Below are positions 34,606-62,576 of a stretch of DNA of 64,000 nucleotides, piece after piece. The notes beneath the pieces are model-generated. The model was not told the origin of the DNA. It searched no databases and saw only the letters and a list, made by a program, of their open reading frames with translations. The stretch spans positions 56,240-120,239 of the forward strand of contig JAPJBO010000710.1 in NCBI GenBank assembly GCA_030068145.1, in the 5' to 3' direction. A program made the translations under genes and the position numbers. Each line of letters begins with the position of its first letter. The stretch's first letter is position 1. The DNA comes from Diplonema papillatum. Lineage: Eukaryota > Euglenozoa > Diplonemea > Diplonemida > Diplonemidae.

Positions 34606-35708
34606 AAGGCGAAGTCCCAGTCAAACACAGAAATGAATCGCTCCGCGTATTCCTGCGTATTGTTTCCCATGATACGGTCCTTTGTTTTCAAACCTTGAGC
34701 CCCCCCCCCAGAAGGAGGACATTCTGATTCGCTAGCCTGTGCATCCAGCTGCCGTTTTAGCATCGCAGACACGGAAAGCGATAACGTAGTAAGAGAAGTT
34801 GCAATCGCTCACTTTTGCTACTCCCGTGATACAGGCGCAGAAACTGGGCCGTAATTGCCAACAGAGCAAGCCAAGAGGGTAAAACCATACCTGAACGTTA
34901 TCATAGTCGATGGACCAAATTTCCTTCTTCACGACCAAAGCAGCAATAGGAGTGGACGAGTGGTAAGTGGGGTGGTCGGAGCCTGTGGTAGCGGTCACGA
35001 CCCCTTCATCGGGCTTCCCCCCTGTAGACTACTGCACAGTAGGACTGGACCTGGCTCTGGCTTGCTGCACTCTGGCAGTCACTGCTAACAATGCTGGTAG
35101 ACTTGTATCGTAGGGCCTGGGGGAAAACCCGACGCACCACAAACAATCCTTTTCAATTCCGGGTCCATTTCTCGCATCGGAGCTGATCGCGAGCAGGAAT
35201 TCGAAAAAAGTCTGCCACGTGGAGTCACGGTGGACCAGCCAAGAAATGTCACCAGCCAGGGATCGATTCCTGTCCTTCCCACTGCAAACCTGGTGCGGTT
35301 CCCACGCCCGGTGCCTGCATCTTGTAAGGACCCTCGAACCACGCACATACTGGATGGTCCCTGGTCTACTTTTCACGGATCTCTTCATCAGAGCTGATCG
35401 CGAGCAAAAGGTCGTCGAAAAAGGTCTGCTGCGTGAACCAGCAACATAATGCCACCACCAGGGGATCGATGCCCGTCCTGCTCAATGCACACCGGGTGGT
35501 TTCCAAGCCCGGTGCTCTGCATCCTGTAAGAACCCACGGACCACGCACGTAGTGTTTGATTCCCGGGTCTATTTTTCACGGATCTCTTCATCGAAGCTGA
35601 TCGCGAGCAAAACTTTGTCGACAAAGGTCTGCTACGCGGACCAGCAACAGAATGCCACCACCAGGGGATCGATGCCCGTCCTGCTCAATGCATACCGGGT
35701 GGTTTCCA

Positions 35709-37084
35709 GGGCTAATTCCCATTCTCGAACACAATTTAACTTTTTGCCCATTCTCGAACACTCGCTAACTTTTTGCCCATTCTCGAACACTTTTTAACTT
35801 TTTGCCCTTTCTCGAACAGTCGCCTAACTTTTTGCCCATTCTCGAACATTGAAAATTGCCCAGGGTGGGATTCGAACTCACCACCCATACATCCAAAAAA
35901 TCCCAGCCATTTTTGGGTTCGCCATTTCCGATTCCGATTTCCGTCGGATCCGTTCCTCGAACAAGGTGCCAGCATTGTGGTTGGCTGCTGCGTCCCGGCT
36001 CGGTATCCTGGTTGCGCACTGGGTCACTGACACCGCAGACTACGGGTAAACGGTTTTCTAAAGGTATTGTGCACACAGATTCGTGCATAATTCAGGTATG
36101 CGCGAGTGACCAGCCCGTTCTACTTGTAGCGCTTCCAAATTCTGTGCCGAAACCTCTTCAGAATCAGAGCCACTGTTTTACCACGAGTAGTAACCAGCGA
36201 CGGGCGCGACGTCACGAATGACTCCAGAGGAGGAGCGGGCCAATCAAGATTTGAGTGATGCTACTCTTACAGTAGAAGCTGCAAAGAAAAAGTGCCAGTC
36301 GTCTGAAAATAATCAGGAGCTGGCGGCTGGTGACTGGATCTTGTCCTCCCTGCCGCAGGCTGGCAGGCTGAGAGAGAGACTGGAATTGCCGGCGAGCCGC
36401 CAGGGCGCATGGCAGGAGCCATTTCTCCTGCCATCATGCAGCCATGTGCCAAGTGTAACCGCTGCCACTTCAACTCTGAAAAAAAGTTGACCAAAAAAAT
36501 TGGACCCCGAATTTTTGACCAAAAATTGACCGAAATTTTTTGACCCAAAAAAATTCGGTCAAACTATTTGAATCACTTTGCTGCAAAGTTTGCAAGCTGC
36601 TTCTCCTGGTGTAGGTCAGTGAACTAAGGTCACTCAATGGCCGCCGCACAATTTGCAAGCAAGACGAGCAAACTCAGTGAAGTCTGTGCCGGGTTTTTAA
36701 ACGGGGTAGCTCGCACACCACCGTCACGTGTAGAAGAGCTTGAAGCAACCAAGAACCCGAGTGTAGATGCCGAAGAGGCTGCGGCCTGAAGTTAGCAAGG
36801 GTACCGTCTTCGAATCAGTGAACTCAGCTGTTCTCGCGGTAAAACTTGAGGCAAATGTCTCGGGGAAGTGACATTTTCATCACAAAAACTGGAATGTTCG
36901 AGAATGGGCAAAAAGTTAAATAGTGTTCGAGAATGGGCACAAAGTTACCGAGAATGGGCAAAAAGTTAAAAAGTGTTCGAGAATGGGCAAAAAGTTAGCG
37001 AGTGTTCGAGAATGGGCAAAAAGCTAAATAGTGTTCGAGAATGGGCACAAACATAAGGAAGTGTACTATAATGGGAATTGTCCC
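35709..37084. mobile_element. Fold-back element A (Mutator-like ends), 10-bp target duplication
   Basis: GTGGTTTCCA is present at 35699-35708 and 37085-37094. The ends read GGGCTAATTCCCATTCT and, inverted, GGGACAATTCCCATTAT. Inside each end is an array of about 28-bp units (TTTTTGCCCATTCTCGAAC), left at about 35715-35850 and inverted right at about 36895-37050. A tRNA T-arm-like stretch (reverse complement GAGTTCGAATCCCACC) lies just inside the left array. The middle has sequence shared with element K near 47770-47900. No transposase is seen. Confidence 0.87.
36218..36490 (+). CDS. Small ORF inside element A
   Basis: ATG 36218, 90 codons. The first 40 residues are acidic and helical; the rest is unremarkable. 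No homology is recognised and it may be chance. Confidence 0.2.
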   Translation: MTPEEERANQDLSDATLTVEAAKKKCQSSENNQELAAGDWILSSLPQAGRLRERLELPASRQGAWQEPFLLPSCSHVPSVTAATSTLKKS

Positions 37085-39254
37085 GTGGTTTCCAAGCCCG
37101 GTGCTCTGCATCCTGTAAGAACCCACGGACCACGCACGTAGTGTTTGATTCCCGGGTCTATTTTTCACGGATCTCTTCATCGAAGCTGATCGCGAGCAAA
37201 ACTTTGTCGACAAAGGTCTGCTACGCGGACCAGCAACAGAATGCCACCAGCCAGGGGATCGATACCGTCCGTGTCCAATGCACACCTGGTCAGGCTGGTG
37301 ATTTCTACGCCCGGTGCCCTGCAAATTGTAAAAACTACTGACCACGACATAGTTTTCTGTCTCCGGGTCTATTTCTCTCGGATCTCTTCAAGGGAGCTGT
37401 TCGCAAGCAAAAATTCGTCGGAAAAGGTCTGCTATGTGGACCAGCGGGAAAATGTCGCCAACCAGGGGATCGAATCCCGTTCTTCCCAATGCACACCGGT
37501 GGTTTCCACGCCCGGTGCCCTGCATCATGCACGGACCCACGAACAATGCGCATACTTTTTCGTTTCCGGGTCTATTTTTCACAGTTCTTTTCATCGGAGC
37601 TGATTGCGAGCAAAAATTCGTCGAAAAAGGTCAGCTACATGGACCAGCGGGAAAAAGTTACCAACCAGGGGGTCGATACCCGTCTTGCTCGATGCCCACC
37701 TGGTGGTTTCCACACCCGGTGCCCTGCATCATGCACGGACCCACGAACCACGCGCATACTTTTTCGTTTTCGGGTCTATTTTTCACGGATCTCTTCATTG
37801 CAGCTGATCGCGAGCTAAGATTCGTCGAAAAAGGCCTGCCGCGTGGTCCGGCGGGAAAATGCCACTACCCAGGGGATCGATTCCCGTCCTTCTCAATCCA
37901 CACGTGGCGGCTTCCACGCCCGGCGCCCTGCAACTTGTAAAGGGCCCCAAACCATGCACATAGTTTTTCGTCTCCGGGTCTATTTTTCACGGATCTCTTC
38001 ATCGGAGCTGAAAACGAGCAAAAACTCGTCGAAAAAGGTCAGCTACATGGACCAGCGGGAAAAAGTTACCAACCAGGGGGTCGATACCCGTCTTGCTCGA
38101 TGCCCACCTGGTGGTTTCCACACCCGGTGCCCTGCATCATGCACGGACCCACGAACCACGAGCATACTTTTTCGTTTTCGGGTCTATTTTTCACGGATCT
38201 CTTCATTGCAGCTGATCGCGAGCTAAGATTCGTCGAAAAAGGCCTGCCGCGTGGTCCGGCGGGAAAATGCCACTACCCAGGGGATCGATTCCCGTCCTTC
38301 TCAATCCACACCTGGCGGCTTCCACGCCCGGCGCCCTGCAACTTGTAAAGGGCCCCGAACCACGCACATAGTTTTTCGTCTCCGGGTCTATTTTTCACGG
38401 ATCTCTTCATCGGAGCTGAAAACGAGCAAAAACTCGTCGAAAAAGGTTTGCTACATGGACCAGCGGGAAAATGTCACCAGCCAGGAAATCGATACCCTGC
38501 ACAAGCCGTGACACGGCCCAGAGGGCGGGGGGGGGTACCAGGGGGGGGTTGGGCGACTCTGAAAACGAGAACGAGGCAGAAACTCTGGTTTCGTCGCAAT
38601 TTTTTTGCATTTTTGGGTACCTACCTGAGGTTTTCTGACGAAAAAGACGTGAACATATTTTCAGTCGTCTGGGCAGCTATTTTAGCTATTTTTAGCTATA
38701 AATCACGGATTGGAAACGATAGTTATATAAAACGATCATTTTCGAAAGTGAAATATCATCGTTTTTTATCGTTTTCAAAAAACGATCGTTTTTTGCTTCT
38801 CAAATTTTCCTGTTGTAATTATGCACCAACCAATCTTTGGCGCGTCTATTTCTTGTGCAAAATTGACTTTGGTGGCCAGATTCAGCTGTTTCATGGCCTT
38901 TCATGTAGGAAAGGGTAGCCAACATGCTCTTTTTCTCGTCCTTTTCCGCAATCGTGCGCTTTCTAGCCCACTCAAGGATTATCGACATGTATCCTTTCCA
39001 ACTCAACTCTGAGGCTGGCGGCGTAGACTGAAGGTTTGCTGCTCATCGAAGTGCTTTTTCTACTTATTTGTGGACTCATCCTCGAACACTAGCTGCAATT
39101 GCGCTTCCCAGCTGTGGCTTCTCCCGCCGGATGCCCTCGGCCGCGCTCCTGTGCTGTGGCGGCTTGTGGCAACTCTTGACCAAGCCAACAAGTTTCTGCT
39201 ATTTCCAGCTTCTTGTCCAGCTCGTCCGTTTTGATGTACTTCTTCATGATTCCT

Positions 39255-39749
39255 GGGGGGGGTCGAATACAAGAGGTACCTCTTGTATTCGGCGTGCTGA
39301 TCCTGCAATTTTCCCGAAAAAAGAAATAGAAAACAGCACCGCAAACCCGGAACCCGCGGGAACTCCCTTCTTCTTGGAAGAGACGCACGTAATTTGTGGT
39401 CCCGTCTATTTGGCACGGTTCTCTTCATCGGAGCTGAACGCGAGCACATTCGCCGAAAAAGGTCTGCTACATGGGCCAGCAAAGAAATGTCACCAACCAG
39501 TGGGTCTATTCCCGTCCTTTCCATTGAAAATCTGTGGGTTCCACGCCCGGTGCCCCGCATCTGGCAAAGACCCACGAACCACGCACATGCTTTTTGGTCC
39601 CCGGGTCTATTTTTCATGGTTCTCTGCATCGGGATCAGAAAATCGTCGAAAAGGTCCGTTATGCGGACCAAGGAAAAATCCAACCTTTTTCCAGATTTCC
39701 AAAATGCCTCTTCTATTCAAGGTACCTCCTGTATTCAACCCCCCCCCCA
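39255..39749. mobile_element. Inverted-repeat element Q carrying S monomers
   Basis: A G-run plus TCGAATACAAGAGGTACC on the left faces an inverted GGTACCTCCTGTATTCAA plus C-run on the right. Between them are about 1.5 S monomers. The left segment itself is palindromic around GGTACC. No target duplication is visible. Confidence 0.5.
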
Positions 39750-40105
39750 GTAACTTGAGTTTTGACTCCTTCACCTAAGGCAATGCTTCGACCCGGCGAA
39801 CTCCGATGAACGGGGCTCCTTCAAAGACGAATCTGATGCCTACCCTCGACTGTCTGCTCGTTCCAGTGCCATAGCGCTGTCGTGGCAATAATGTGATACC
39901 ACCCATTCCACGAAAAAGTGTCACAGATTTTCCGTCTGAAAAGCAGCCCTTTTGGGTCAAAATTTTGGAATTTTTGGGAATTTTTTTTTGGGATGGAAAG
40001 CGCTATCCCTGGCGATTATGGGCAAGCAATCAGCTCGCGTGGCGACCAAAATCTGGCGTGCAGATGGACAAAAGGTCGGTTTTGGGGCTGTTTTAAAAAC
40101 CCAAA

Positions 40106-42025: not shown

Positions 42026-42039
42026 CCTGGGGGGCGCGC

Positions 42040-44447: not shown

Positions 44448-44590
44448 AGAACTTAGCATCGCCCGAACTTGGCTTCTCCCGAACTTTGCTTCACCAGAAC
44501 TTAGCTTCACCCGAACTTTGCTTTCGTCCGAACTTGGCTTGGCTTCGCCCGAACTTAGCTTCACCCGAACTTTACTGTTATCCGAAACAA
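44448..44590 (+). repeat. J-type array, second locus, with tRNA-like neighbour
   Basis: Same units as 31048-31328. Just beyond it, at about 44612-44700, the minus strand contains ATGGTAGAGTGAACCG and AGGTCGAACCCGGG, which resemble A and B boxes. The stretch 44700-45300 contains poly-T and short palindromes and no gene. Confidence 0.7.
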
Positions 44591-46118: not shown

Positions 46119-46976
46119 CAACAAAACAAGTTGTCGACAACTAACAAGTAAAAGAATAAAACAAAACTACGCATTTCTTTTTTGCTGTGGGAAGGGCACA
46201 ACAGGGTGCCATGGGGGACTCCAGATGGTCTCTGAAGTCCGCGCTTCGGCTGCGGAAACACCAAACCCCGCTCGTGGGGCCAACAACGACACGTCAGCGG
46301 AACGCCGGATTAGAAGCTCGCTGCGAATCTCTAATTTGCATTGACCCCCTGACCTATCTGTTGCTGCAGCACCACGAAAGCTGTGACGCCGGCAAATTTC
46401 ACCTTGACTATGTGAGTGTTGCATGCTAATGCAAAAACAGGGCACAAGCAAATGGAAGGGACACTGCCGTGTTTTTGCGCCATCGATGTTGAGATTGGTG
46501 CAGTGAAGGATTGACACCTCCTTGAGATCAACGACCTGTCGTTGTCCTTCATGGAGATGTTTCAGCAGATCATAAAAGACCGTCACCTCCAGACGCCTGC
46601 CGAGTATGATGATGATGTGGTGGTGTCGGCTAGGGCTGATAGCAGGAGTGTGTGGAGAGATGTTTCTCTTGGGATGTCTGCGCAGGCCATGGACTCCATG
46701 CAGTACCGGGAGGTTCGGTACGTTGTGAAGCAAAAGTTCCCGTAGCTCGAACACCTGTCAGCGCCTTCGACCTGCTGATGAAAAAGAGCCAAGCCCGCGT
46801 GAAGCCGCTGCAAGTGGGTGAAACGCAGTCGTGGATAGTGTTGTTCAACAGGCTAGTCCAGGACTACGGGCTGGTGCCCATTACAGCACGGTTTTGTTAG
46901 ATTTGCCCATTACAGCACGGTTTTGTTAGATTTGCCCATTACAGCACGGTTTTCTTAGATTTGCCCATTCGGTGCC

Positions 46977-48653
46977 TCAAAAAGTGTCACTTGCAGGGTT
47001 CGTCCCCGAAAAAGTGCCACATGCAGGACTCGAACTCACGACCTTCAGACCTTCCGCTGCATCGTGACTGTGACATCCACATTTTGGACGACGGACAATG
47101 GGCTGTCACTGGGCATAGCTGTCAGCCGCATTTTGGGCCATCTAACCACAAAATAGCCACAAACCTTGTGGCTCGTTTTGTGGCGGGCACAACTTCAGAT
47201 GGGGTTTTGGACGGAGCTGCTACACCGGGCTCGGTATCCTGGTGCGGCACTCATTGGCGGTAAACGGTTTACTAAACCTCTGTAGTAGTAGGTTGAACTT
47301 GATATGCAGCAACAATCTGTGACGATGCCTGTGAAGACTGCACAAGCCGCAACAGACTACCTCTTTGCACGCGTCGTGTCATTTTGCTTCGGTCGCTTAT
47401 TGCCCCGCGTACTGTTTGCGCTTCACGTCCCGATGTGCAGTTTGACGACGAGCTCGAGGAACCACCAGATGATTCGGCGCACTTCCTTTTCTCCCCGCGG
47501 CCGAGATCTCGACTCCCCTGTGTTTTGTTTCACCTGCTCGTCTCCGCGGCTCCGCTTCGGAGCCGCGGAGACGAGCTGGGTAGCAGTGGGTTCGTGGGCG
47601 GCCATCTGCTTCTCGTTCGCAGGCGGCTGCTGCGGCCTCGGCTTCTTGCGGGCGCTTCCCCCTACTTGCTCGTCGTTGCGTCGCGCGTCGCGCTTCCGCT
47701 GGGAGTAAGGCGCCGTCCGTCCATATTGCTTGCACGTTCACCGTTCGGTGTTCCCGCGGCCGACCCTTGTCCCGGTAGTAGTAGGAATTATGCACACAGA
47801 TTCGTGCATAATTCAGTTCGCGCGAGACCCGTTCTACAGTTCTGTAGACACAACTTCCACTTCTTCTTACGATTTCTGTCCGATAGCCTCTTCAGAACCA
47901 GGCCGCAACTTGAACCCAAAACCTACAACACTTGGACCCAAAACTTGGACCCAAATGGTGCCAAAACCGGGAACCAAATTGAGAACCCAAAACTTGAACC
48001 TAAACCCTAAGCTTGGATCCAGACCCAAAACTTGACAGTCACACTGACTAATGGATACGGGTAGCTGATTCGGACTCTCATCATTCAGGTGGATGCGGGA
48101 TGCGAACGGAATGCGTCGCTGCGCCTGCAGTGTGTCACTACATCGTCGCTGCGGCAGTGCCGCAAGTGCGTGCAAGGCGGTCACCGCCGCGGTGAGTGGA
48201 GAGCTTCGGAATGCGTGCTCGTCAAGTGCGCGGAACACGCGAAGCGTGCGGCGACTACGAAGGTGCCATTGGGATGATTTAGCCCGGAATTTCGGATGAA
48301 TGTTCCATGACAACAACTGCCATTTTCTTCTCAGTCTTGGCCGGCGACGTGGTTCAGCAGAATTTCAGCCAGAAACGGCTTAGCAGCTGGCCCAAATGCT
48401 GGCCCTAAAACCCGTCAACCTCATCTGAACTTCTGACAGACTGAAGGTGTCCACCTGGCCACAAAGGTAGCCACAAGGTTGTGGCTACTTTGTGGCTGAC
48501 AGCTATGCCTGGTGACAGCCCATTGTCCATCGTCCAAAATGTGGATGTCACAGTCACAATGCAGAGGAAGGTCTGAAGGTCGTGAGTTCGAGTCCTGCAT
48601 GTGACACTTTTTCGGGTTCAAAAAAAGCCAATCCCACAAGTGACACTTTTTGA
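46977..48653. mobile_element. Inverted-repeat element K with tRNA-like termini
   Basis: Terminal inverted repeats of about 230 bp begin TCAAAAAGTGTCACTTG. Each contains a tRNA 3'-half-like segment (AAGGTCGTGAGTTCGAGTCC on the outward strand). It interrupts the left terminal repeat of element B, which is continuous on the right. The middle has a perfect 17-bp-arm hairpin near 47537-47573 and a degenerate ACCCAAAACTTGG repeat at 47920-48030. Target duplication not clear. Confidence 0.7.
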
Positions 48654-49259
48654 GGGGGCAAATACCATTCTCACACAAAAAAACAAAATTTTACCGTTCT
48701 CACACAAGTTTCAACAAACCTTACCATTCTCACACGGTCGCAACAAATTTTACCATTCTCACACAAGCTCCGACAAATGTTACCATTCTCACACAGTCGC
48801 AACAAATGCTACCATTCTCACACAGTCGCAACAAATGCTACCATTCTCACACAGTCCAAACAATTTCTTACCATTCTCACACAGTCGCAACAAAATGCTA
48901 CCATTCTCACACAGTCGCGTGTACACAAAATGATTAGAAAGCTACAGGGCAGTGTGAGGTTTAGCTACAAAAAGCTACAGCTAGCTACAGCGTAGCTTTT
49001 TGTAGCCTTTTGTAGCTTTTTATTATCGTGGTCAACTCTACATACTTGGGGGCGTGATTGAGCCCCTCAGGCTCGAATCACTAAGCTGCGCATTGTAAGC
49101 GGTTCGTCCGTTCGAGAGTCTTCGGCTTGGGACTGCTCGTCTGCGATGGGAAAGATCGGGCGATACACAGAGCCTTTCGTGTTAGATATGCATCTGGTAC
49201 GCTCCGACAATGAGAAATCCAGGTAGCCGACAGAGATGTTTCCATTCCCTGCAGTTGAC

Positions 49260-50399
49260 TCATTCGCTTTCCGTGTCTTGTTGGGCTATGGCTTCCATGC
49301 CTCTTTTATGGACTCTTGACCATTCAATGTACTCTTTAAAGGTTTGCGAGCTCCATCTCCCGGCCTTAAGGAGGATGCACAGCTCTGGGTTGCTGTCATT
49401 TATGTCCTGCGCGGCGCCCCTGCGGAAGCTATGTGTACCCCACCCTTGCACAGGCTGTTGGAACAGGGTGGCCTTCATTTTAACGGATTCAAGCATGTCT
49501 GGGTATGTCATGCTGAATATTTCCGCACCGGGTGCAACATTATCTCGGATGTGAGGCCACAGGTGATGAATGGGGCATAGCGCCCGCCATCCTTTCTTCC
49601 TCGCCTGCATGTTGCAAATGCAACCCCTAGATAAGGTGTCACCTTGTTGGTTGTTCTTTCTTGTTCTCAGAACAATGTAGAGTTCCTGTTGGAATTTAAA
49701 GACTGCGCTGTGTCTTTTCGTCTCTTTAACGTCCCGGAGTGCATTAACCGGCGAGTCAGTCTCAATTCCACGTCTCAGCGGGATCGCTTCGTCACCGGTG
49801 CGTAGCAAGTAGACGTACGATAGAACTGCCAATTGACGAAACTCGTTTAACGAACGGTTGGAGCCGGCAACAACAACAGGGGATGTATCGTCCACAATTT
49901 TATCGAGAAGCCGCGACGTGATCGCATCCATTTTACGTTTTCCGGTTTGCCTCCCTCTTATCCCTCGAATCACTTCCTTCACCAAGGGATCTCTCAGCGG
50001 AGAATTGATCCCCAAGAACCGTTGGACTTTTTCGAGCGCTGATATTGTGCACTCTGCGGTATCCGCATTGGTGTGGATTGCTATGAACCCACGAATTTCT
50101 TCGGGGTCAATGGGGAAGTGGGGACATCGTTTGAGGTCCGCGTAGTGCGTCCAGGCCCTTACTGCGACGAAGTATTGGTGCCACGTCTCACCTTTGACCG
50201 AGGATGCCGTGAGCGATTGAACGGCTTGATCGATCGTCGCGCGAGCGGCCAGAGGTGGTAGCCCCTCGAGGTATTCCAACTTGCGCTTCCGACTCACAGT
50301 GAAGTCAGTTATCACCGACTCCTCGGTTGCATCGCGTTCCATCTCCGCTTTCAACATGGCGATGACCTCCGGTCCAGTCGGATACTTGCGTCCAGACAT
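49260..50399 (-). CDS. Tyrosine recombinase (Crypton/DIRS-type)
   Basis: 379 residues from ATG 50399, the first Met before the coding-like region. The N-terminal half is helical and SAM-like. The catalytic domain shows L-L-R-T-G-D-E (catalytic Arg), H-S-F-R-R-G-A-A (H-x-x-R) and, after W-S-S-Q-T-F-K, E-Y-I (nucleophile Tyr). A C-x-C...C-P-I-H-H stretch lies between. This R...HxxR...Y order defines tyrosine recombinases, which cut and rejoin DNA through a Tyr-phosphate link. The frame is intact and may be active. No reverse transcriptase is adjacent, favouring a Crypton or captured gene. It lies inside fold-back element B, but typical 10-bp target copies are not made by this enzyme class. Confidence 0.85.
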   Translation of the reverse strand: MSGRKYPTGPEVIAMLKAEMERDATEESVITDFTVSRKRKLEYLEGLPPLAARATIDQAVQSLTASSVKGETWHQYFVAVRAWTHYADLKRCPHFPIDPEEIRGFIAIHTNADTAECTISALEKVQRFLGINSPLRDPLVKEVIRGIRGRQTGKRKMDAITSRLLDKIVDDTSPVVVAGSNRSLNEFRQLAVLSYVYLLRTGDEAIPLRRGIETDSPVNALRDVKETKRHSAVFKFQQELYIVLRTRKNNQQGDTLSRGCICNMQARKKGWRALCPIHHLWPHIRDNVAPGAEIFSMTYPDMLESVKMKATLFQQPVQGWGTHSFRRGAAQDINDSNPELCILLKAGRWSSQTFKEYIEWSRVHKRGMEAIAQQDTESE

Positions 50400-51013
50400 T
50401 TTGTCAGTTGGGTGGGTGGGTGGGGGAAACTTTCTCTGTACGTGGTGTACGTGAGTTCTTCCGTCGAAGACGTTTCCTGAGCGGTCGTAGAGGTTGACTA
50501 ATCGATAATAAAATACTTTCAGTTCTAAAGAACTGAAAGTTTTCTTTTTTTTTTTGGGAGGGGTTCCCAGCCCATTCAGGATACTTTTCGCCCCAATTTC
50601 TTCAGTTTCGAAGTTTTCTGGGCATATTTTGGTTTTTCCTGGCACCTGCTTTGCCCTGTGCACTGAGGCCTCACTGCCGGGCCCGCTGCAGCCTACCGAG
50701 GGTCGGTGAGGCTGCAACCACGCAGGCGGCGAGGGTGATGCAGCAGGGAAGCCTGGGGCGCCAGAGTCACGACGGTTTCATGAAGCGAAGCCAATCAGGG
50801 CCCCAACCGCAGAGCGAAGAGCGCTCGAGACAGTGTGGGCCCGGAGCCCCGGCTGGAGCTCTCATTGCACTCCAGAGCCCCGGGCTGAGTCAGGTATTTG
50901 GCCGGTACCACCACTTACCAACACTTGGGCAGATGCTGCAGTGTGGACTGCCGAAGCCACCGTTTAGACCAGTCACTCCCGTCGGACGGGGCCCCCCAAA
51001 AAGCCCCTCGGGG

Positions 51014-51565
51014 CAGTGTGGGGGCTGGCACCGGTGCTGGCCGGTGCCCAGTGCTGAGCACCAGCACCGGGCACCGCGGCGTGATTCTGTGATGCAAAGT
51101 TTTGCATTCCGCGGTGTAGTTTTCATGCCTAGTGCCCTGAACGTCGGAAAGCCTCAACGAACCACGCAAATACTGTGGGTTCCCTGGGTCCATTTTGCAC
51201 AAATCTCCTCATCGGAGCTGAACGTGAGCATAAAGTCGACGAGAAAGGTCTGCTACACGGGCCATCAAAATAATGTCACAAAACAGGGGATTTAGCATTG
51301 CAAAACTGGTGGGTTCCATATCCGCCGTAACCCGGTGCCCTTTACCTCGTACGAACCCAAGAAACGCGCACATACTTATTGGTCGCCGGATCCATTTCTC
51401 ACGGCTCTCTTCATCGGAGCTGCTCGCGAGCAAAAACTCGTTGAAAAAGGTCTGCTACGGGGTGGGTAAAGTCAAATACCAGCCCCAGCACCGGAGAGCA
51501 CCGGAGAGCACCGGCCGGTGCTCTCCGGTGCCAGCACCGGTGCTGTGGTGCCAGCCCCCACACTG
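51014..51565. mobile_element. hAT-like element P, 7-bp target duplication, S monomer inside
   Basis: Ends CAGTGTGGGGGCTGGCACC inverted at both sides, with CTCGGGG at 51007-51013 and 51566-51572. Subterminal CACCGG/GCACCGGTGC palindromes form GC-rich arrays. The middle is an S monomer. 550 bp is too short for a transposase. Confidence 0.65.
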
Positions 51566-53872
51566 CTCGGGGCCTCCTGGGGATTCGCCACAAGAACGCA
51601 CTCACCCGCCCTTTGGAAGATAGTGGAGACCATTATCAAAGACCGCCCCACGTTCCTCCATCGATGGACTCCTCAGTCCGGAGGCTTCCGGTAGGGAGAG
51701 GCACAGAGAAGCAGCTCTACACCGTGACGGCGGCAATCCGGAAAAAAGGTCTTTTTTTCCGGTTGTTATTCACATGCTGCTCGTCTTCGACCTGGCGCGC
51801 GCTTTCGACGGGCCCCGGCAGGCGGGACTCCCGGGAAGAGCACGCCGCTCAGCACGAATCAACCCCGACTACTTTACGCGTAGTCCCCGGGTGAATGCCC
51901 AAACTTGACACATTGCAATTCAAGTCACTTTGGCCCTTTGGAAAGTTTGGGGTCTTATAATCTTAGAATTTGAGTGGCGTCGGTTCAAACCCGCCTCTCT
52001 GGTCTTTGGTATTTGTTGCGACTGTGTGAGAATGGTAGCATTTGTTGCGACTGTGTGAGAATGGTAACATTTGTTGGAGCTTGTGTGAGAATGGTAAAAT
52101 TTGTTGCGACCGTGTGAGAATGGTAAGGTTTGTTGAAACTTGTGTGAGAATGGTAAAAATTTGTTTTTTTGTGTGAGAATGGTATTTGCCCCCCGAATGG
52201 GCAAATCTAAGAAAACCGTGCTGTAATGGGCACTCGAAAACACCGAATGGGCAAATCTAAGGAAGACCGTGCTGTAATGGGCAAATCTAACAAAACCGTG
52301 CTGTAATGGGCACCAGCCCCCAGGACTACCCCATAGAATTCGACAGGGCCCTCCTGGTCGATGAAAAAGGGCATCCGTTCTATCAGGAAGTGGCCAAGAC
52401 CCTTCTCAAACTTGATGGACTCCCACTTTCTGTGCAGCTGTTGCAGTAGTATGAGGGCACCAACAAGGTGATTGCCCAGCGCCGTACCGCCGACATCCCC
52501 CGGTGCACCCTTCAGAACCTGCAAGAACAAGAAAGTAGCCTGAGAAATGTGTTGGCCTTGCCGTGGGTCGCAGAGCTGAGGTATTCTCAGCATCCACTGC
52601 ACGAAACTGCAGGAAGTGAGAGGTGTACCCGTATCGTCACGCAGCAAGCGCAAAACCAACAGCGCACTGAGCAACGCAGTGTGGGAGTTCCATCCAGAAA
52701 GCCTGTGATTGCGACTGGAGCAGTCCATCGTGAAAGCGGAGGGGTCTTCTTCTTGGGGAGAGCTGGAAGGGCAATTCGCCGAGGCAATTCGAGCCGTTTT
52801 CACTGGACACCGTGCCCAGCCTCTCTGACGATCGCCAGGCTCGGTTCTAGCCAAGGCCCACGACTAGACGCCTACTACTGTGGCAGCAGCTCTACGCTGA
52901 AGGCTCACCTGGTCCCTCCGTACAACAAAAAGCCTGAGCACATGCAGACGACGGTTATTTCCCAGTGTAAAAAGTCGCCGAAGAATCAAAGTGAGGGACG
53001 CGTACCCCTCCACACAGGAACCCACAGGGCCACCACCCCCCGACCGCTTGCCACCAAGACCACCCCCCTCCACACAGGAACCCACAGGCCAGGTGGCTTG
53101 CCAAACTATTTTTTAAAAAAAAAACTATTTTTTTTTTGCGCGCGCGCGCGGAAAATCTTCAGGGGTCGGGGGACGCGGATCAAAAAATAAAAATAGTCTG
53201 CCCTAAAGGGGAAAATCCCTGAAGAGGCACCACATTCTTTACGCGCTCGGGAGAGCACGTCCAGTTTTCGGGTTAGGCGGTACAGGCCTATTCGTGCCGG
53301 AAGGCAGGCCACAGAGACACAAGGTGAGAGAGATAGGATGGACTATGGAACAAGGATACGTGTGTGGGTCCAGCTTGAGCCTTTCACTCGACCGGCCAGG
53401 TGGCGGTCAAGTGAGGTCTGGTGGAATTGTGAGGCGCAGGGCCTCGAGACGTTGGGGACAAAAGCGTGGCTTCTCCCCTTCTGGCCTTAGTCGGCCGGGT
53501 GACGAAGCATCGCGACGTTCCTCGAACACGAAACTGACCAGGGAAGATGAGTCCAACTCCGTGAGGGTTGGACTTGGGTGTGGACTCCGTCGGAGCACCC
53601 CGTAGGGAGGCGGCAGAGGAGCAATGAATCGCGGGCCCAGTTTCCTGAACCGTCACTGACGGCGCCAAGGGGGATAACAGCGTGTAGCCTGTTGAGCCTT
53701 TCCAATCGACCAGCCAGGTGGTGGTCGAGTTCAGATGGAGACCAGAAGTTTGCTGCGAGGCCGCAGTTTCGCGGGCCTCGTCAGTCAAAATGTGTCAAAT
53801 ACAGATCAAAGAGCATCGAGGACTTCAGGGAAGGGGGGCGACCCTTGCTTCGAATCTCCGTACGATCGCTTA

Positions 53873-55866
53873 AATGGGCACGGCATCCTCTGAGTCGGCG
53901 GACCGCGAGGAGACTTCAGAGGTGTGTGGGTGGTCGACGGCTGCAGCGGGGGGATGCGAACTGGTCGCCTCTTCGGCGAGGATGGTGTACCTCGGGAGGG
54001 CGCCGCTCCCCTGCAGGTACGCGAGAGCGAGCTCCGGGAACACGAACAGGACGGCCCAGAGGAACTCCATGGCGTCCACGGGCGGCGACCTCCTGCCGAG
54101 ACGATTCCTGACCTCGAGGCCGTTCTTCATCTCTAGCCGAGGGGTCTGAACCACGGGGGCATCACAGCCGATAAAGAGGTGAACGAGCGGGGCCAGCGAC
54201 CTCGTGCCGCACATGGGGCAGGGGAGGTGCGGTTCCCTGCGGTCTGCTCTCGTGAGGGTTGGCCAGTTGGTAGCATACATCGTCATCACGAGGTGGTGGT
54301 GGCCGGTGCGAATCTGCCGCACTTCCCTTTCGGCCCGCGGTGTGAGGTGCTTGGGTCGAGGGATGCGGCGGCCGAAAACCAACCTCGAGAAAGACGACGG
54401 GTTTTGTAGGCGGGCGGCTCTACTCACGGCTTCCCGAGCTCCCGCTTCGCTGCTCTCCATCCACAGCGTTAACGGTCGTGGTGCAGACTCTCGGCGCATA
54501 AGGGAGGGGGAGGTTCCTCGCCGTAGCCGCAACCGCTTCTCGCATGTACTTCTCGGCGGCCCGTCTGGCGATACCGTCAGCCCTCTCGTTGCCGGAAAGG
54601 CCGCAATGGCCAAAAACGAACTGCAGGGTGATGGTATAGCCCCGCGCTTCGAGTTCGGCCAGCGACTGCCAGATGTGGATTGGGCCGGGTTGCGTCTGGC
54701 AGAGCGGGCCGTGGCTCAGCGTTTGCAGGAGTGACTGAGAGTCACTGACGATGAGGATGTTGAGGGGCGTGGTGGACGGAGGGAGCAGGCGCTTGAGGAC
54801 GTTCACGCAGATGACCAGAGCCATCTCCTCGGCGCGGTAGCTGTGCGGGTGACGACCGGCCGGGAATCCGGCTTCGACAGTGCGGCAGTTGCCCGTTGGA
54901 GTGGTCAGGTGCTGTCCCAGGCCGTGGTCTGCCTTTATGGGGACAGAAGGCTCCAGTTCAATGTACAAGCCGGAACCACCCCAGGTAGACCGGTCGTTGG
55001 TGCTGCGTAACCATGAACGAAGGGTGGCGCTGGCGTTGGCGTCGCAAATGGAGGGCGGCGGAGGGTCGCCGCTCACAACAGAGCCGTCCGACCAGGCGGT
55101 GCAGTGTGGGTGCGGGAGCGTCGCGAGTTGTACTTCCGCGGCTCGCTTCTTCTCAGCAGCGCTAGCATTCTTGCGTACCTTCAGGGCGGTGTTGATCGTG
55201 ACGCCGGGGCATGGAGTCCACGGGGCGAACCGGTTGGGAATACGAGCCTGCCGAATACACTGGTCTGTGCCCGCCTTGACAGTGACCCGGTCGTACGTCG
55301 TCCTCAGGCGCGTATCGAGTGATAGTTCGCGCATCCAAAGGGCCCGGTTGTGCCGCAGCCTCTCCCGGAGGGCCGCGATCTTGTATTCAACAAGGGAACG
55401 GATTGGGAGGATGCCGGACTCTTGTTGGGCGGCAAAATCGGAGGTGCCTTTGCGGCAGCCCAGGATGAGGGCAAGTGCACGGCGATGGAGGCGTCCGAGT
55501 GTTGCAAGAAGGCCGGCGGCGAAGAGGATGTACGGTCCGTAAATGCCGAGCGCGTACGTGAATGTGGGGAGCACGTATGTGAGATAGAGGGTGCGGAGGA
55601 TGGTGCCGTTGAAGCAGTAGTCCTTGCCGGCCATGGTGCCGGAGGAAGTTGAGTCGCAGAGAAAACACCTCGATGACCCGGCGGAGGTGGGGGTGGAACG
55701 TCAGCTCGCGGTCGATGGTTAGGCCGAGCAGCCTTACACTATCGACCCACTGCAGCTCTTCAACCACCCTGAGCAGGGTGCCACCGGAGGCCTTTCGCAC
55801 GACGCTGACCACCGTCTTGCCGTCGTGTGGCGCCCCGAGTCCCACAATCTTACGCTCTTCTGACAC
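53873..55866 (-). mobile_element. Decayed ingi-like LINE: RT end, RNase H, zinc knuckle
   Basis: The minus strand carries, in three phases, an RT palm/thumb end (V-R-L-L-G-L-T-I-D, then L-T-Y-V-L-P-T-F-T-Y-A-L), an RNase H domain (W-S-D-G-S, Y-R-A-E-E-M, S-D-S-Q-S, G-H-C-G-L-S-G-N-E-R-A-D) and a C-P-M-C ... H-L-F-I-G-C knuckle. Phase changes near 55640 and 54420-54610 show frameshifts. It is GC-rich, unlike the copy at 31342. The region 53206-53872 on its 3' side may be its 3' UTR. Confidence 0.85.
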
Positions 55867-55975
55867 CAGTCGCCGGACGTCCAGGGGGGGAAACTTCCTG
55901 ACCCTTTACGCTCCGGCCCGGGGTTTCTTGACCCGTGATTTGGCACCGGGTATTTGCATACTTGAGGCCCGGACG

Positions 55976-56695
55976 GAACTTAGCCTCATGCTTGCTTCGC
56001 CGAACTTACCCGCCCCAAAGGGGCCCAATAGAGCTTCACCAGAACTCAGCTTTGCTTCGCCCGAACTTAGCTTCACCAGAACTTTGCTTTGCTTCGCCCG
56101 AACTTTGCTTTCACCAGAACTTAGCCTCCCCAGAACTTAGCTTCACCCGAACTTTGCTTTGACTTAGCTTGCCCAGACTTCACCAGAACTTAGCATCGCC
56201 CGAACTTTGCTTTGCTTCGCCCGAACTTTGCTTTCACCAGAACTTAGCCTCCCCAGAACTTAGCTTCACCCGAACTTTGCTTTGACTTAGCTTGCCCAGA
56301 CTTCACCAGAACTTAGCATCGCCCGAACTTTGCTTTGCTTCACCCGAACTTTGCTTCACCAGAACTTTGCTTCGCTTCAGCAGAACTTAGCTTCGCCCGA
56401 ACTTTGCTTCGCCAGAACTTAGCATCGCCCAAACTTTGCCTTGCTTCTCCCGAACCCATTTGCCTCACCAGAACTTTGCTTTGCCCGAACTATGCTTTCA
56501 CCAGAACTTAGCCTCACCAGAACTTAGCTTCACCCGAACTATGCTTTGCTTTGCCCGAACTTTGCTTCACCAGAACTTAGCATCGCTCGAACTTTGCTTT
56601 CACCAGAGCTTAGCCTTAGCTTCACCCGAACTTTGCTTTGCTTCGCCCGAACTTAGCTTCGCCCGAACTTTACTGTTTCCCGAACTTCAACTGCT
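55976..56695 (+). repeat. J-type array, largest copy
   Basis: About 25 degenerate units of AACTTAGCTTCACCCG / GAACTTTGCTTCGCC type, including higher-order duplications near 56060-56280. It ends about ten bases before the target site of element D. Confidence 0.88.
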
Positions 56696-57445
56696 GCCTC
56701 TAGTGGGTGGATTCCCGATACATCACTCATTTACACTTCTTTCCCAATACATCACTCATTCACACTTCTTTCCCGATACATCACTCGTTCAAACTTCTTT
56801 CCCAATACATCACTCATTTACACTTCTTTCCCGATACATCACTCATGTACACTTCTTTCCCGATACATCACTCATTTACAACTTCTTTCCCGATACATCA
56901 CTCATTTGCAACTTCTTTCCCAATACATCACTCATTTGCAACTTCTTTCCCGATACATCACTCATTTACAACTTCTTTCCCGTTCGGTCACTCATTTGCA
57001 TTTGGCTGAAGTTCAGCCTCAAATTCAGGTTTCCACCGAATTCTGACAGTGTAGTGTCACTCGAATGTCATCATGAGCTACGGTAAAGAACATAATAGGG
57101 GCCTGAGGTGTGTCACTTGAACGTAAAATGCATTCGACGAGGATTTAATTTGTGTACAGTGAGTCAGTCGAATGACCGAAATCAGGAAAAGGAAAAAGGC
57201 CGCTCCAGCCCGGAGTCCGAGTCCAGGAACGTGACGGTCAACCACAGCTTGCAAAGCTTGAGTCGGAGGCAGCACAGTGCTACAACCCCGTCCGATCTGC
57301 GACCGTCTCCACGAGCTTGTGCTCAGCAAGCGGCAAGCCCCAAAGGTGCGCCTCACGACTTGATGCCTTAGTTGGTCACTTGGTGGACGTTGGTACCGTA
57401 ATCGACCCGTAGCCCGTGGCACTGCACGTAAGCTTGGCTCCCGTG

Positions 57446-57527
57446 TAGCAGGTTTTCCCTGCGTACCAGAAATGGGACACCCGCTAAATTAGATCGATAC
57501 AGAGAAGATTAGCATGGTCCCTGCCGT
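57446..57527 (+). ncRNA. U6 snRNA-like segment fused to S-type sequence
   Basis: A 5' hairpin (GCAGG/CCTGC, 57448-57462) is followed by GATACAGAGAAGATTAGC and ATGGTCCCTGC, which hold the invariant ACAGAGA box and the AGC triad of U6. After that the sequence leaves U6 and becomes inverse S repeat (CCGTAAGTGGATCC), also found at 59952. It looks like a chimera, not a complete gene. Confidence 0.65.
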
Positions 57528-57551
57528 AAGTGGATCCCTGTGGTTCGTCGG

Positions 57552-59366
57552 AGTCAGTACCCAAGATAGTACGGTTTTTGTTAGAGTTGATCAAGATAGT
57601 ACATGTTTCCTTAGAGTTACCCATTATAGTACATACCTCTTAGAGTTGATCAAGATAGTACATGTTTCCTTAGAGTTGCCCATTATAGTACATCCCAAGA
57701 TAGTACGGTTTTTCTTAGAGTTGATCAAGATAGTACATGTTTCCTTAGAGTTGATCAAGATAGTACATGTTTCCTTAGAGTTGATCAAGATAGTACATGT
57801 TTCCTTAGAGTTGTCCATGATAGTACGTTTTGCTCTGGTACGGTCTCTTATCCTGTTCTGTTCTGTCCTGTGGGGCGGAACGAAGCCCGGGCAAAACGAG
57901 GCTGGGATAAGGTCCAAAACAGTACGTTTCCCGAGTTTGTGCCCAAAACAGCACCTTTTCCTGTTTGTGCCCAAAAGAGTACTTTGTTCTAACTTGAGTG
58001 CGGGTCCAAGTTTTGAGTCCAAGTTGTGTCCAAGTTTCTGCAGAACCAGGTTCGGTTCGCAAATCCAGACTCTCATCGAATCAAGGACCAAAATGGCAAG
58101 GTTTGCTGCCATGCCGATCAAAAACTGAAACACAACAGGCATCAATTCCCTCAGCCGGGTTTTCCTCGCGTGCAGCACGGTGCACCGCGTTTGAGACCCA
58201 AGTTTGGGGACCCAAGTTTGGGGACCCAAGTTTGGGACCCAAGTTTGGGACCCAAGTTTGGGACCCAAGTTTGGGACCCAAGTTTGGGACCCAAGTTTGG
58301 GACCCAAGTTTGGGACCCAAGTTTGGGACCCAAGTTTGGGACCCAAGTTTGGGACCCAAGTTTGGGACCCAAGTTTGGGACCCAAGTTTGGGACCCAAGT
58401 TTGGGACCCAAGTTTGGGACCCAAGTTTGGGACCCAAGTTTGGGACCCAAGTTTGGGACCCAAGTTTGGGACCCAAGTTTGGGACCCAAGTTTGGGACCC
58501 AAGTTTGGGACCCAAGTTTGGGACCCAAGTTTGGGACCCAAGTTTGGGACCCAAGTTTGGGACCCAAGTTTGGGACCCAAGTTTGGGACCCAAGTTTGGG
58601 ACCCAAGTTTGGGACCCAAGTTTGGGACCCAAGTTTGGGACCCAAGTTTGGGACCCAAGTTTGGGACCCAAGTTTGGGACCCAAGTTTGGGACCCAAGTT
58701 TGGGACCCAAGTTTGGGACCCAAGTTTGGGACCCAAGTTTGGGACCCAAGTTTGGGACCCAAGTTTGGGACCCAAGTTTGGGACCCAAGTTTGGGACCCA
58801 AGTTTGGGACCCAAGTTTGGGACCCAAGTTTGGGACCCAAGTTTGGGACCCAAGTTTGGGACCCAAGTTTGGGACCCAAGTTTGGGACCCAAGTTTGGGA
58901 CCCAAGTTTGGGACCCAAGTTTGGGACCCAAGTTTGGGACCCAAGTTTGGGACCCAAGTTTGGGACCCAAGTTTGGGACCCAAGTTTGGGACCCAAGTTT
59001 GGGACCCAAGTTTGGGACCCAAGTTTGGAACTCAAGTTTTGGGCACAAACTCAGGTCCGAGTCAGGAAACCGTACTCTTTTGGTATTTCACCCAACCAGC
59101 AGCCCGTGCCTGGGCCACGGCTGGGGAAAGGGGGGTCTCTAAAAAAAACGAAGAAAAAGCAAAAACTACGGTTTCTGTGCATTTTTCTTGCATTTCTGGG
59201 GGCCTTCCAGGAGTTTCAAGTGTGTGTACTATAATGGGCAACTCTAAGGAAACATGTACTATAATGGGCAACTCTAAGGAAACATGTACTATCTTGGGTA
59301 ACTCTAAGAGGTATGTACTATAATGGGTAACTCTAAGAAAGTGTGTACTATAATGGGAAATGACCC
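57552..59366. mobile_element. Fold-back element E, 9-10 bp target duplication, empty site known
   Basis: GGTTCGTCGG lies at 57542-57551 and 59367-59376. The right end, inverted, reads GGGTCATTTCCCATTATAGT; the left end AGTCAGTACCCAAGATAGTA matches less well. Units of about 30 bp (AGATAGTACATGTTTCCTTA) form the left array to 57830, with an inverted array at 59222-59360. The uninterrupted target with the same flanks is at 59953-59990. Confidence 0.88.
58195..59028 (+). repeat. 13-bp tandem array, about 64 copies
   Basis: GACCCAAGTTTGG repeats almost without change; the first two units have an extra G. Each unit boundary makes CCCAA...TTGGG, a partial palindrome. The length of 13 explains why long frames stay open on both strands. 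It lies in element E between inverted segments (GAGTTTGTGCCCAAAAC at about 57933 and inverted at 59036). 1.5 units also occur downstream of the tRNA-Gly gene at about 62545-62566. Confidence 0.97.
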
Positions 59367-59437
59367 GGTTCGTCGGCCTTGCATTGCCGCAGGGTACCAT
59401 GGATTACCATGGCGAACACGTCCAAACCGGTCCAAAA

Positions 59438-60167
59438 CAGTGTGGCTCCTGGGGCCTGGCGCGTTTGGCGTGGCGTGGCGCGCGCCAAGCGCGCCAAGCC
59501 TGGCGCGTTTGGCGCGGCGCGGCGCGTTTGGCGCACCCTGTAGCCCCAAGGAAATTTAGGCTCCCTCGTCACATGCACGGGGCAAAAAGGGAATTGATAA
59601 TTTTCCCGGGCCATTTTCCAATGCACAAACAGTGGAATCTGGGTCTGGCAAAAGTTGTGGTGATACTTTCCCGCTGGTCAACGTAGAAGATCTTTTTCAA
59701 CGACGTTTTGCTCGCCCTCAGCTCCGATGAAGGGAACGGTTCAAAATAGACTCGGGGACCCATACGTATGTGTGTGGTTCGTGACTCCTCATAAGATGCA
59801 GAGCACCGGGCGGCAGGTTTACCACGGGAAGGACAGGAATCGTCCCCAGGTAGGTGACAATTTCCCGCTGGTCCACGTAGCAACTTTTTCCCGACGACTT
59901 TTTGCTCGATTTTTTCTCGGATGAAGAGAACGGTGCCAAATAGACCCGGAACCGTAAGTGGATCCCTGTGGTTCGTCGGCCTTGCATTGCCGCAGGGTAC
60001 CATGGAATACCGTGGCGAACACGTCCAAACCGGTCCAAAAACGCTGCTTGCAGGGATCGGGGCTACAGGGTGCGCCAAACGCGCCGCGCCGCGCCAAACG
60101 CGCCAGGCTTGGCGCGCGTGGCGCGCGCCACGCCACGCCAAACGCGCCAGGCCCCAGGAGCCACACT
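59438..60167. mobile_element. Inverted GC-rich arrays I around S sequence
   Basis: CAGTGTGGCTCCTGGGGCC and then TGGCGCGTTTGGCG palindromic units, ending near CACCCTGTAGCCCC, form about 110-bp arms at 59438-59548 and inverted at 60060-60167. Inverse S monomers lie between. The ends resemble those of element P. No target duplication is seen. Confidence 0.65.
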
Positions 60168-60191
60168 GGGTGTGGGAAGGCATGACACGGA

Positions 60192-60580
60192 TTAGGGGAA
60201 AAAGGAAAAAGAAATGGGGGAGAAAAAGAAGGGGAGAGGGGAAGTTGGGGTTTTGAGGGTTGTCCTCGGGGTACAGGGGGGTGGTTGGAGGGTTTGAGTG
60301 ACAGAGGTTACGCTTGCGCTGTTCGCATGAAGGCTCTCGTTTCTTTTTCTCTCTTGTTCCGTTTCAGCAAAGATCTCCTTCATTGGCCGCCTGGCTTTGT
60401 TTGCACTACAAGACGCATTTCATTCGCTCTTCTTGATTCCTTGCAGTGGCTTACTTGCAGCTAAGTCGACTCGACAGCTTGAGAGAGACAGCATGACGAT
60501 GGTGGCAATGAGGATTGAACCCGAGACAGGAAACGAATACAATTTGTGTTGCAATCACTACCAAATGCAAATTAGTGACC
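60192..60580. other. Interior of element D, nothing recognised
   Basis: Purine-rich then mixed sequence inside element D; the frames are short and unremarkable. Confidence 0.4.
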
Positions 60581-60772
60581 AACTGGGAAAGAAGTTGCAA
60601 ATGAGTGATGTATCGGGAAAGAAGTTGCAAATGAGTGATGTATCGGGGAAAAAGTTCAAATGAGTGATGTATTGGGAAAGAAGTTGCAGGTGAGTGAAAG
60701 AAGTTGTAAATGAGTGATGTATTGGGAAAGAAGTTGACCGTGTGTGATGTATTGGGAAAGAAGTTGCGAATG

Positions 60773-62383
60773 GGGCCAAAACCCATTACAGTATGTTATC
60801 CAAACTTTGAACCCATTACGGTACATGATCCAAACTTTGAACCCATTACGGTATGGTCCCAAACTTTGAACCCATTACGGTATGGTTTTCCAAACTTTGA
60901 ACGAATTACGGTAGGTTCCAAACTTTGAAACCCATTACGGTATGGTTTTCAAACTTTGAACCCATTACGGTATGGTTTTCAAACTTTGAACGAATTCCGG
61001 CAAGTGTAAAATTTGAGCCCAATTTAGGTACCATTGTCAGTCGAAGTCTGCAATTTGTTAACAACGCATGTAATTGGGCGACAAATTCATCTTCTGTGGT
61101 GACTCTACAGTGCCACGTCAGTGGTCGATCAGTCAGACTCTAAGGCGGACGGGTGATGGTTGCAGCTACCATGTCTTCAGTTGGCCTATCCTAAGTCATC
61201 ATCCTTCTGCACCGCAGTAGCAACAGATTCACTTTCATCTCCAATTCGGCGACCTCCGAAATCCACGTTCAACGCAAAGATGCGGCGTTAGTCTGTGACA
61301 CGTGAACGGTTGGCTGTGTGCTGTTGCTACAGCTGTAGTAAACCTCGTGATCAGCAGGCAGTGAAACCAACGGCCACGTCCGGATTGTGATTGGACCGGA
61401 AGAAGCTGTTTTGGGAAGCTGTGGAACGTTCGCGCCATTCGCAGATGATTCTGTCCATCACTTGCGTCAACAGGAAGGCGAAAAGAGAGAGATGAGGAGG
61501 AGGAAGGGTAAAACTTCATGAGTAAACTTCATGATCAGCAGTGAAAGTTGGCTAATCAACCGTGGGTTTCCGTGCCCCCGTACAGAGGGAGCAGATTTCG
61601 AGCAGCATTACTTCGCAGTCGGTCTGACTCCGCGAGCGGCAGCCGTCTGGATCCGGAAGTAGCAGCGGCGTTTCAGCCACAGGGTCGACTCGAGCGTGAA
61701 CCTCACCCTGGAACCCTTTCACAAAGTTTCAGGACTCCAAGTCCGACTCTAGTTCGCAATCGGACGAGCCCGAATCGGAAGTGGACTCGTCGGGACCTCC
61801 TCCCATGAAGTCTGATGACGGAGGGCCGGGCGGACCGCCGACCGGCTGGACAGGGAAGGAAGGCATTGGACCGGACCCTGGGGTGGGCGGATCAGGGGCG
61901 AGTGCGCCGCCATGGTGGTTGCCCAACCATGCACCGACTCTTCTTCAAACCCGAGCACTTCCCCTGGGGATGCATCTGTGCGAGGTCCTTCAGCAATCGA
62001 GAGGTCCAAAGCAAGCAGCCAACCTCGAGCATGTGCCAAAAGACACAAACTGGATCCATCGACGCCAACTTCACATCTATGATCTCTCTCCACGTCCGCT
62101 TCTACGTATCTCGTTGGTGTTGGGCTTATAACCTGACAGTGACACCGAAATGGGCTCAAACTTTGAGAGTCAAAGTTTAGAAATCATGCCGGAATCGGTT
62201 CAAATTTGGAACCTCACCGTAATGGGTTAAAAGTTTGAAAACCATACCGTAATGGGTTCAAAGTTTGAAAACCATACCGTAATGGGTTCAAAGTTTGGGA
62301 TCATACCGTAATGGGTTTCAAAGTTTGGAACCTACCGTAATTCGTTCAAAGTTTGGATAACATACTGTAATGGGGTTTGGCCC
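60773..62383. mobile_element. Fold-back element H inserted in the array of D, 10-bp duplication
   Basis: GTTGCGAATG lies at 60763-60772 and 62384-62393. Terminal repeats begin GGGCCAAAACCCATTACAGT with a single difference in about 40 bp. Units of about 31-33 bp (TTGAACCCATTACGGTATGG) fill 60780-60990, with an inverted array at 62190-62375. The middle (61000-62180) has several Ser/Pro-rich frames but none convincing. Confidence 0.9.
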
Positions 62384-62576
62384 GTTGCGAATGAGTGATG
62401 TATTGGGAATCCACCCGCCTCTAGTCTCGCTGGGCGCCGGTCTTTACCGGCGCAAATGTACTCCGACCAAATATGTATTCGGAAAGCCCTGTCCTCAACG
62501 GATTCAAACGTGTCCTCAAAATCTCGAAACCGACATTAGATTTGTCCCCAAACTTGGGTCCCAAACCGGGGAAAAA

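Follow-up and report, generated by a model that had tools for sequence, protein, structure and literature searches.

The 64,000-nucleotide stretch of Diplonema papillatum DNA analyzed here (contig JAPJBO010000710.1, positions 56,240 to 120,239 of the forward strand; "the window" below) contains six elements, A to F, whose ends are inverted arrays of ~30-bp units. Several of them are nested: C lies in B, F and E lie in D, with E inside the right array of D, and A is inserted in a satellite (Table 1). The inverted pairs of 29- to 30-bp arrays that delimit A, B, D, E, and F are each flanked by exact direct repeats of 9 to 10 bp. A preliminary description of this DNA had listed these five pairs, and all are present as it gave them, although the repeat at 57.5 to 59.4 kb is better read as 9 bp (the duplication is at least 9 bp in all 10 F pairs and exactly 9 bp in nine); the sixth pair, C in B, is additional. 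The fold-back structure (inverted ends made of tandem short repeats), the nesting, and the target duplications of 9 to 10 bp bear out the proposal made there of nested fold-back transposons with minisatellite ends. The six elements are very probably DNA transposons of the Mutator superfamily, that is, Mutator-like elements (MULEs). Most of them are short and non-autonomous, with terminal inverted repeats (TIRs) that consist of 29- to 30-bp unit arrays behind a cap and with transposases encoded in or beside their relatives.

Transposases of these families are found elsewhere in the genome. Matches to Pfam domain PF10551 occur at no fewer than 150 places, all above the curated cutoff (150 of the 245 candidates were scored). 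Open reading frames (ORFs) of 754 to 990 amino acids with the MULE domain lie in, or adjoin, A-, B-, C-, E-, and F-family elements, and PF10551 and PF00872 are present in ORFs of C and E elements and in those next to A and B arrays. A C-family element at C170, which has the 9-bp repeat CCCATTCGG, holds a 990-residue MULE ORF (PF10551) and adjoins the left array of a B-family element with an 844-residue MULE ORF (PF10551); the array of the latter is visible on one side only, because its right side is disrupted by further insertions, and a second array there is oriented like the first. A 3,764-bp E element at C571, with CACTGCAGAG on both sides, encloses a 756-residue MULE ORF (PF10551), and an F element of ~4.24 kb at C183 encloses a 773-residue ORF with a PF10551 genome match under it. 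At C56, a 754-residue MULE ORF is found beside A arrays, in a stretch that stops short of the left end, and A ends at C489 and C730 lie ~1 kb from PF10551 matches in the same score group as that of C56. The elements of the window are taken to be mostly non-autonomous Mutator-like fold-back elements, since copies of the same families elsewhere hold or adjoin a MULE transposase.

Three further loci were chosen by PF10551 score group, blind to arrays. These represent family H (C177; an ORF of 1001 amino acids, inverted 31-bp arrays, and the repeat GAAAAAAAA), family K (C65; 999 amino acids, inverted 31-bp arrays, and the repeat TTGTTTTTT), and family M (C8; 1197 amino acids, with one array seen). 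An array of 29- to 31-bp units adjoins the transposase in all 8 families examined and is present on both sides in 5 of them (C, E, F, H, and K). The transposases of A, B, C, E, and F share 36 to 56% protein identity; those of H, K, and M are 20 to 25% identical to them and 30 to 34% identical among themselves.

The six elements also share the structure of their ends. Read inward, each end starts with a common cap, G(G/A)G-N6-(C/A)CC, followed by the array. Of the 15 pairs that can be formed from the array units of A, its sister family A2, B, C, E, and F, 11 are similar when read in the same orientation (shuffling, p<=0.02), the exceptions being A-B, B-C, C-E, and C-F. No significant likeness to any other family was detected for the units of D, H, K, and M (11 of 45 pairs are significant overall). 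The preliminary description had the units differing completely between elements and the members unrelated in sequence. Neither view stands in light of the common cap, the unit theme common to A, B, C, E, and F, and the 36 to 56% identity of their transposases; that these families are unrelated is rejected by the similarity of both units and transposases.

Table 1. Elements and related features of the window (positions are those of the window)
Feature	Position	Length	Ends	Ends read inward into array	Arrays	Target duplication	Remarks
A	35709..37084	1376 bp	GGGCTAATTCCC / GGGACAATTCCC	GGGCTAATTCCCATTCTCGAAC and GGGACAATTCCCATTATAGTAC	35718-35848 and 36895-37051 (29-bp units)	GTGGTTTCCA, 35699-35708 and 37085-37094	Non-autonomous; inside 204-bp satellite
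B	46868..52319	5452 bp with nested C counted	GGGCTGGTGCCC (both)	GGGCTGGTGCCCATTACAGCAC	46875-46969 and within 52196-52319 (29-bp units)	CCAGGACTAC, 46858-46867 and 52320-52329	
C	48655..52192	3538 bp	GGGGCAAATACC (both)	GGGGCAAATACCATTCTCACAC			In B, at inner edge of right array of B
D	56705..62416	5712 bp with nested F and E counted	GGGTGGATTCCCGATAC / GGGTGGATTCCCAATAC	GGGTGGATTCCCGATACATCACTC	56712-56997; 60585-60772 plus 62384-62416	GCCTCTAGT, 56696-56704 and 62417-62425	
F	57551..59366	1816 bp	GAGTCAGTACCC / GGGTCATTTCCC	GAGTCAGTACCCAAGATAGTACG and GGGTCATTTCCCATTATAGTACA	57562-57826 and 59225-59357 (30-bp units)	GGTTCGTCG, 57542-57550 and 59367-59375	Nested in D
Paralogue of F target	59951..60000 (+)						Uninterrupted; single copy of the 9-mer duplicated at F
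E	60773..62383	1611 bp	GGGCCAAAACCC / GGGCCAAACCCC	GGGCCAAAACCCATTACAGTATG	60780-60991 and 62170-62374 (30-bp units)	GTTGCGAATG, 60763-60772 and 62384-62393	Nested in right array of D

The target of A is found uninterrupted in other monomers of the satellite. The arms of C, 183 bp long, are 98% complementary. The cores of A and B share a 45-bp block with 89% identity (36062-36106 and 47783-47826) and otherwise differ. Inside F, positions 58189-59039 are occupied by 65 copies of a 13-bp minisatellite, GTTTGGGACCCAA, and a similar array of ~40 copies is found inside an A2 element at C170. The core of D contains a 110-bp inverted repeat, 99% complementary (59438-59547 and 60059-60168), which is perhaps a further short inverted-repeat element.

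The ends are widespread in the genome (271,365,524 bases in 2,910 contigs were searched). The end pattern GGGNNNNNNCCCATTAYAGYAC has 509 matches, and the family patterns, whose sets overlap in part with this one, have 188 (C), 154 (E), 30 (D), 254 (F), and 186 (A, one end type); each of the six patterns has 0 matches when reversed. In a pairing sample of 316,173 bases, including the window, 182 ends formed 55 pairs, and 48 of these are flanked by exact 9- or 10-bp repeats, compared with 2 of 2,970 cross-pairings in the control. By family, such repeats are found in 13/14 pairs of A, 5/5 of A2, 9/9 of B, 6/11 of C, 1/1 of D, 3/4 of E, 10/10 of F, and 1/1 of H. The window contributes six pairs, five of them with repeats; outside it, 43 of 49 pairs have them, as the preliminary description would lead one to expect, in a sample that favors close ends. 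The sample is not random, because many stretches were chosen for having two ends close together; it also includes stretch L053, on which no conclusion is based. Of the 30 ends that head the listing, 11 have a partner with a 9- to 10-bp repeat within ~1.5 kb, and for the other 19 no such partner was seen in the piece examined.

Most of the seven pairs without a repeat belong to C: two have near-identical flanks, perhaps as copies of a single event, another two may have been matched wrongly across nested elements, and one is the C of the window. The others are an A pair with one end type at both sides, which is probably a mispairing, and an E pair that has no explanation. Neighboring ends up to 7.5 kb apart are mostly in the inverted + - order, in 29 of 42 cases for C (100 of the 188 ends) and in 34 of 41 for F (100 of the 254), among the matches listed. 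The inverted partners assumed in the preliminary description are therefore usual, but solo arrays also exist, one of them at 30080-30144 of the window.

That solo array, together with the abundance of tandem repeats (83 Tandem Repeats Finder rows in the window), is what could be said for seeing the arrays as ordinary minisatellites or assembly artifacts and the flanking repeats as chance. Such an origin has next to no probability. Chance is rejected because 48/55 pairs stand against 2/2,970 cross-pairings and none of the six reversed patterns has a match; the pairing control likewise rules out a minisatellite artifact, and transposase ORFs sit between inverted arrays.

The hallmarks of the Mutator superfamily, namely, a transposase in relatives, long TIRs, and duplications of 9 to 10 bp, are all found, except that the C element of the window lacks the duplication. 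This absence is one of several observations that weigh against assigning the six elements to the MULEs. The others are the flanking repeat in just 6 of the 11 C pairs; the transposase loci of A and B, where the stretch examined shows arrays on a single side; the low-complexity, weak flanking repeats at C177 and C65; and family D, read at the window locus only, for which no transposase-bearing copy was found among the 30 D ends listed. D is placed in the Mutator superfamily on anatomical grounds only.

Families A, C, and F have two distinct types of ends. Among the matches listed, neighboring + - pairs within 7.5 kb are heterotypic in 26 of 29 cases for C and in 33 of 34 for F, and none of 20,000 label draws was as high in either family. 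Of the 14 A pairs, 13 combine an ACAATT end with a CTAATT end. For D, the heterotypic share among the matches listed (5 of 6 pairs) is not significant, with 1,919 of 20,000 draws as high. The C element of the window is the only one among the 29 C pairs listed with identical 22-base ends. Judging by these ends and by the missing duplication, it is probably an aberrant or recombined copy.

This C element also contains an ORF (49260-50777, reverse strand) for a Cre-like tyrosine recombinase, identified by a phmmer match to Cre (E=1.2e-5, 158 residues); it has no Pfam or NCBIfam match. The presence of such an ORF in an element without a target duplication could mean that C is a Crypton-type element mobilized by its own recombinase, which appears very improbable. 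The recombinase has 110 genome matches, at least 108 of them besides that of the window (11, including that of the window, share the top score), and is found in tandem arrays of ~2.5 kb at C728, C2126, and C2331, and so forms a repeat family in its own right. A different C element carries the 990-residue MULE ORF instead and has a 9-bp duplication. A preference of C elements for the inner edge of B arrays, where C lies in the window and at C170, was also considered and is not supported by 19 further C ends inspected by eye. Fourteen of these were elsewhere, two were at arrays or ends of E, and single ends were found at the B edge, close to an end of A, and next to the 13-bp array.

Family A is often found next to the arrays of other elements. 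An array of another MULE within 60 bp outside the end was counted as adjacent. The ends listed (100 of 509) were reduced by 8 that were the second end of an element already counted and by 1 with a duplicate flank. Adjacency in this sense applies to 14 of 40 events of A and A2 versus 3 of 51 events of the families B, F, and E taken together (p=0.0007, Fisher test), including 2 of 19 for B and 1 of 30 for F; arrays make up 1.4% of the sequence 300 to 1500 bp outside the first 30 ends. Because this excess was noticed after the fact, a prediction (at least 25% for A and at most 10% for F) was fixed in advance for a prospective sample. It held, for A just barely: 5 of 20 A ends (those beyond contig C181) and 0 of 20 F ends were adjacent to arrays (one-sided p=0.024); once duplicate flanks are dropped, the counts are 5 of 19 and 0 of 18 (p=0.027). 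The F flanks in this sample were ~80 bp instead of the planned 200 bp, against a criterion of 60 bp, and stretch L115, retrieved earlier, supplied one of the 20 F ends. Ends inside the 204-bp satellite or 13-bp arrays are also more common for A (7 of 60) than for F (1 of 51), which indicates that A is found in repeats generally.

It is possible that A aims at arrays, but a general taste for repeats explains the excess about as well. As an addition to the MULE assignment, the A transposase, bound to the array units, might steer copies into its own and sister arrays and thereby build nests. Both the after-the-fact excess over the 1.4% background and the prospective counts are in line with such targeting, which is nevertheless rather doubtful: A also favors the satellite and 13-bp arrays, so the bias is toward repeats in general, A ends are clustered on the same contigs, and the prospective count for A barely reached 25%. 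On balance, A somewhat more probably builds up in repeats because its copies in other places are lost to selection or because it makes local jumps in repeat-rich regions, with no special role for the arrays. This fits its insertions in satellite and 13-bp arrays and the clusters of A ends at C23, C56, C170, and C174, although B and F, which inhabit the same genome, seldom adjoin arrays (the latter in none of the 20 prospective ends).

Some of the elements appear to have been mobile recently. Over 1,685 bp, the core of B in the window shares 99.94% identity with those at L038 and L040, which lie on other contigs and have other target repeats, and near-identical cores at different sites suggest recent movement. 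If the six elements are indeed MULEs, each array unit may be a putative transposase-binding site and the array a stack of such sites, which would raise occupancy and could let a short copy compete better for transposase supplied elsewhere. The DDE transposase would act by cut-and-paste with a stagger of 9 to 10 bp, and nests would arise by repeated insertion into older copies. A wider scheme, in which minisatellite ends are the rule for the Mutators of this genome (with transposases down to 20 to 35% identity), ends come as left and right types in several families, A is drawn to the arrays of putative binding sites in its own and sister families, and elements load into one another's ends and telescope into nests, is unlikely to hold in its entirety.

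Several other ORFs and repeats were seen in the window and elsewhere. The H-family transposase (L054, 1734-4736, reverse strand) has a C-terminal GDGDCF stretch reminiscent of OTU proteases; Pfam gave no OTU match. A 1500-residue ORF (L035, 5499-9998, reverse strand) contains a ubiquitin-hydrolase domain (E=1.3e-20) and has a borderline GIY-YIG match; it lies at C23 between two paired A ends that span 15.3 kb and have a 10-bp duplication, and could be either cargo or a nested element. At C25, a B pair of 6.9 kb, also with a duplication of 10 bp, encloses a 937-residue ORF (L037, 788-3598, reverse strand) whose DUF659 match is just under the cutoff. In the window, the solo array at 30080-30144 represents an unpaired end of family H, GGTAAATTTCCC, with two array units, and directly adjoins a small-subunit (SSU) rRNA fragment (30142-30753); other rRNA fragments are found at 9489-9841 (reverse strand, SSU) and 21253-21381 (forward strand, large subunit). 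Arrays of 16-bp units similar to AACTTAGCTTCACCCG occupy positions 31048-31323, 44449-44586, and 56032-56671, with RNase H-like ORFs near the first (31315-32844, forward strand) and the third (54420-55700, reverse strand).

Fold-back ends with internal tandem repeats are known from the FB and TU elements. The maize Mu/MuDR elements share the MULE transposase family with those described here; their TIR is long and single-copy, not an array. A Mu end, GAGATAATTGCCATTATAGACGAAG, given as a primer (PMC2563033), has the same layout as GGGACAATTCCCATTATAGTACAC, the right end of A. Among the closest parallels in the available passages are the MULE families of Aedes aegypti, such as Muta1, with a MULE transposase and several array-ended families in one genome: subterminal tandem repeats of 9 to 15 bp are reported there in 10 of 12 long-TIR families, along with duplications of 8 to 9 bp and many non-autonomous copies with foreign cores, termed type 2 foldback (PMC5225508). 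Those elements differ from the ones described here in unit length (9 to 15 bp versus 29 to 31 bp) and in their animal host, and the passages make no mention of left and right end types or of insertion into arrays (PMC5225508). The Mutator/Foldback element Tm1 of Meloidogyne resembles the present ones in several respects: its TIRs are composites built from tandem units, its terminal motifs (A1/A2) are asymmetric, duplications of 8 to 10 bp are found in 45 of 53 cases, and there is a copy with a MULE (Phantom) transposase. It differs in being a single family with units of 13 to 15 bp, and target preference is not reported in the passages seen (PMC3169594).

Plant tandem-TIR MULEs also have duplicated terminal sequences, proposed to increase transposase recognition, but according to the portions consulted, those of tomato and Arabidopsis have the whole TIR duplicated once, in few families, with no short-unit arrays (PMC3310237). 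Tetris and Galileo of Drosophila are described as having fold-back ends with internal tandem repeats, in Tetris with duplications of 8 to 10 bp; Galileo differs in its THAP-domain transposase, and Tetris in its units of ~220 bp and its unknown transposase (PMC4079207, in part). In a cross-eukaryote survey of MULEs, the word "tandem" is absent from the main text as accessed, and the table has "minisatellite" once, for Rehavkus (PMC6446971). No description of the present case was noticed in a literature search that covered listings and passages, most subscription papers being beyond reach. The preliminary description saw novelty in so many unrelated members packed and nested in 27 kb; the kind as such is not new and has been published for Aedes (PMC5225508) and, with Tm1, for Meloidogyne (PMC3169594), as far as these partial texts go. 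MULEs with array ends in several families are thus on record; judged against those sources, what is unusual here is the presence of 29- to 31-bp arrays beside the transposases of 8 out of 8 families examined, the two end types, and the location of A by the arrays of other elements.

MULE ends occur together with their transposases in this genome in several natural series, in which both the sequence and the number of the units vary. Such series allow a direct test of why ends are built of tandem sites, of the need for two different end types, and of whether insertions are guided by arrays, and they show one route by which minisatellites and dense nests originate. If A is indeed drawn to arrays, these would be both stacks for transposase binding and landing sites.

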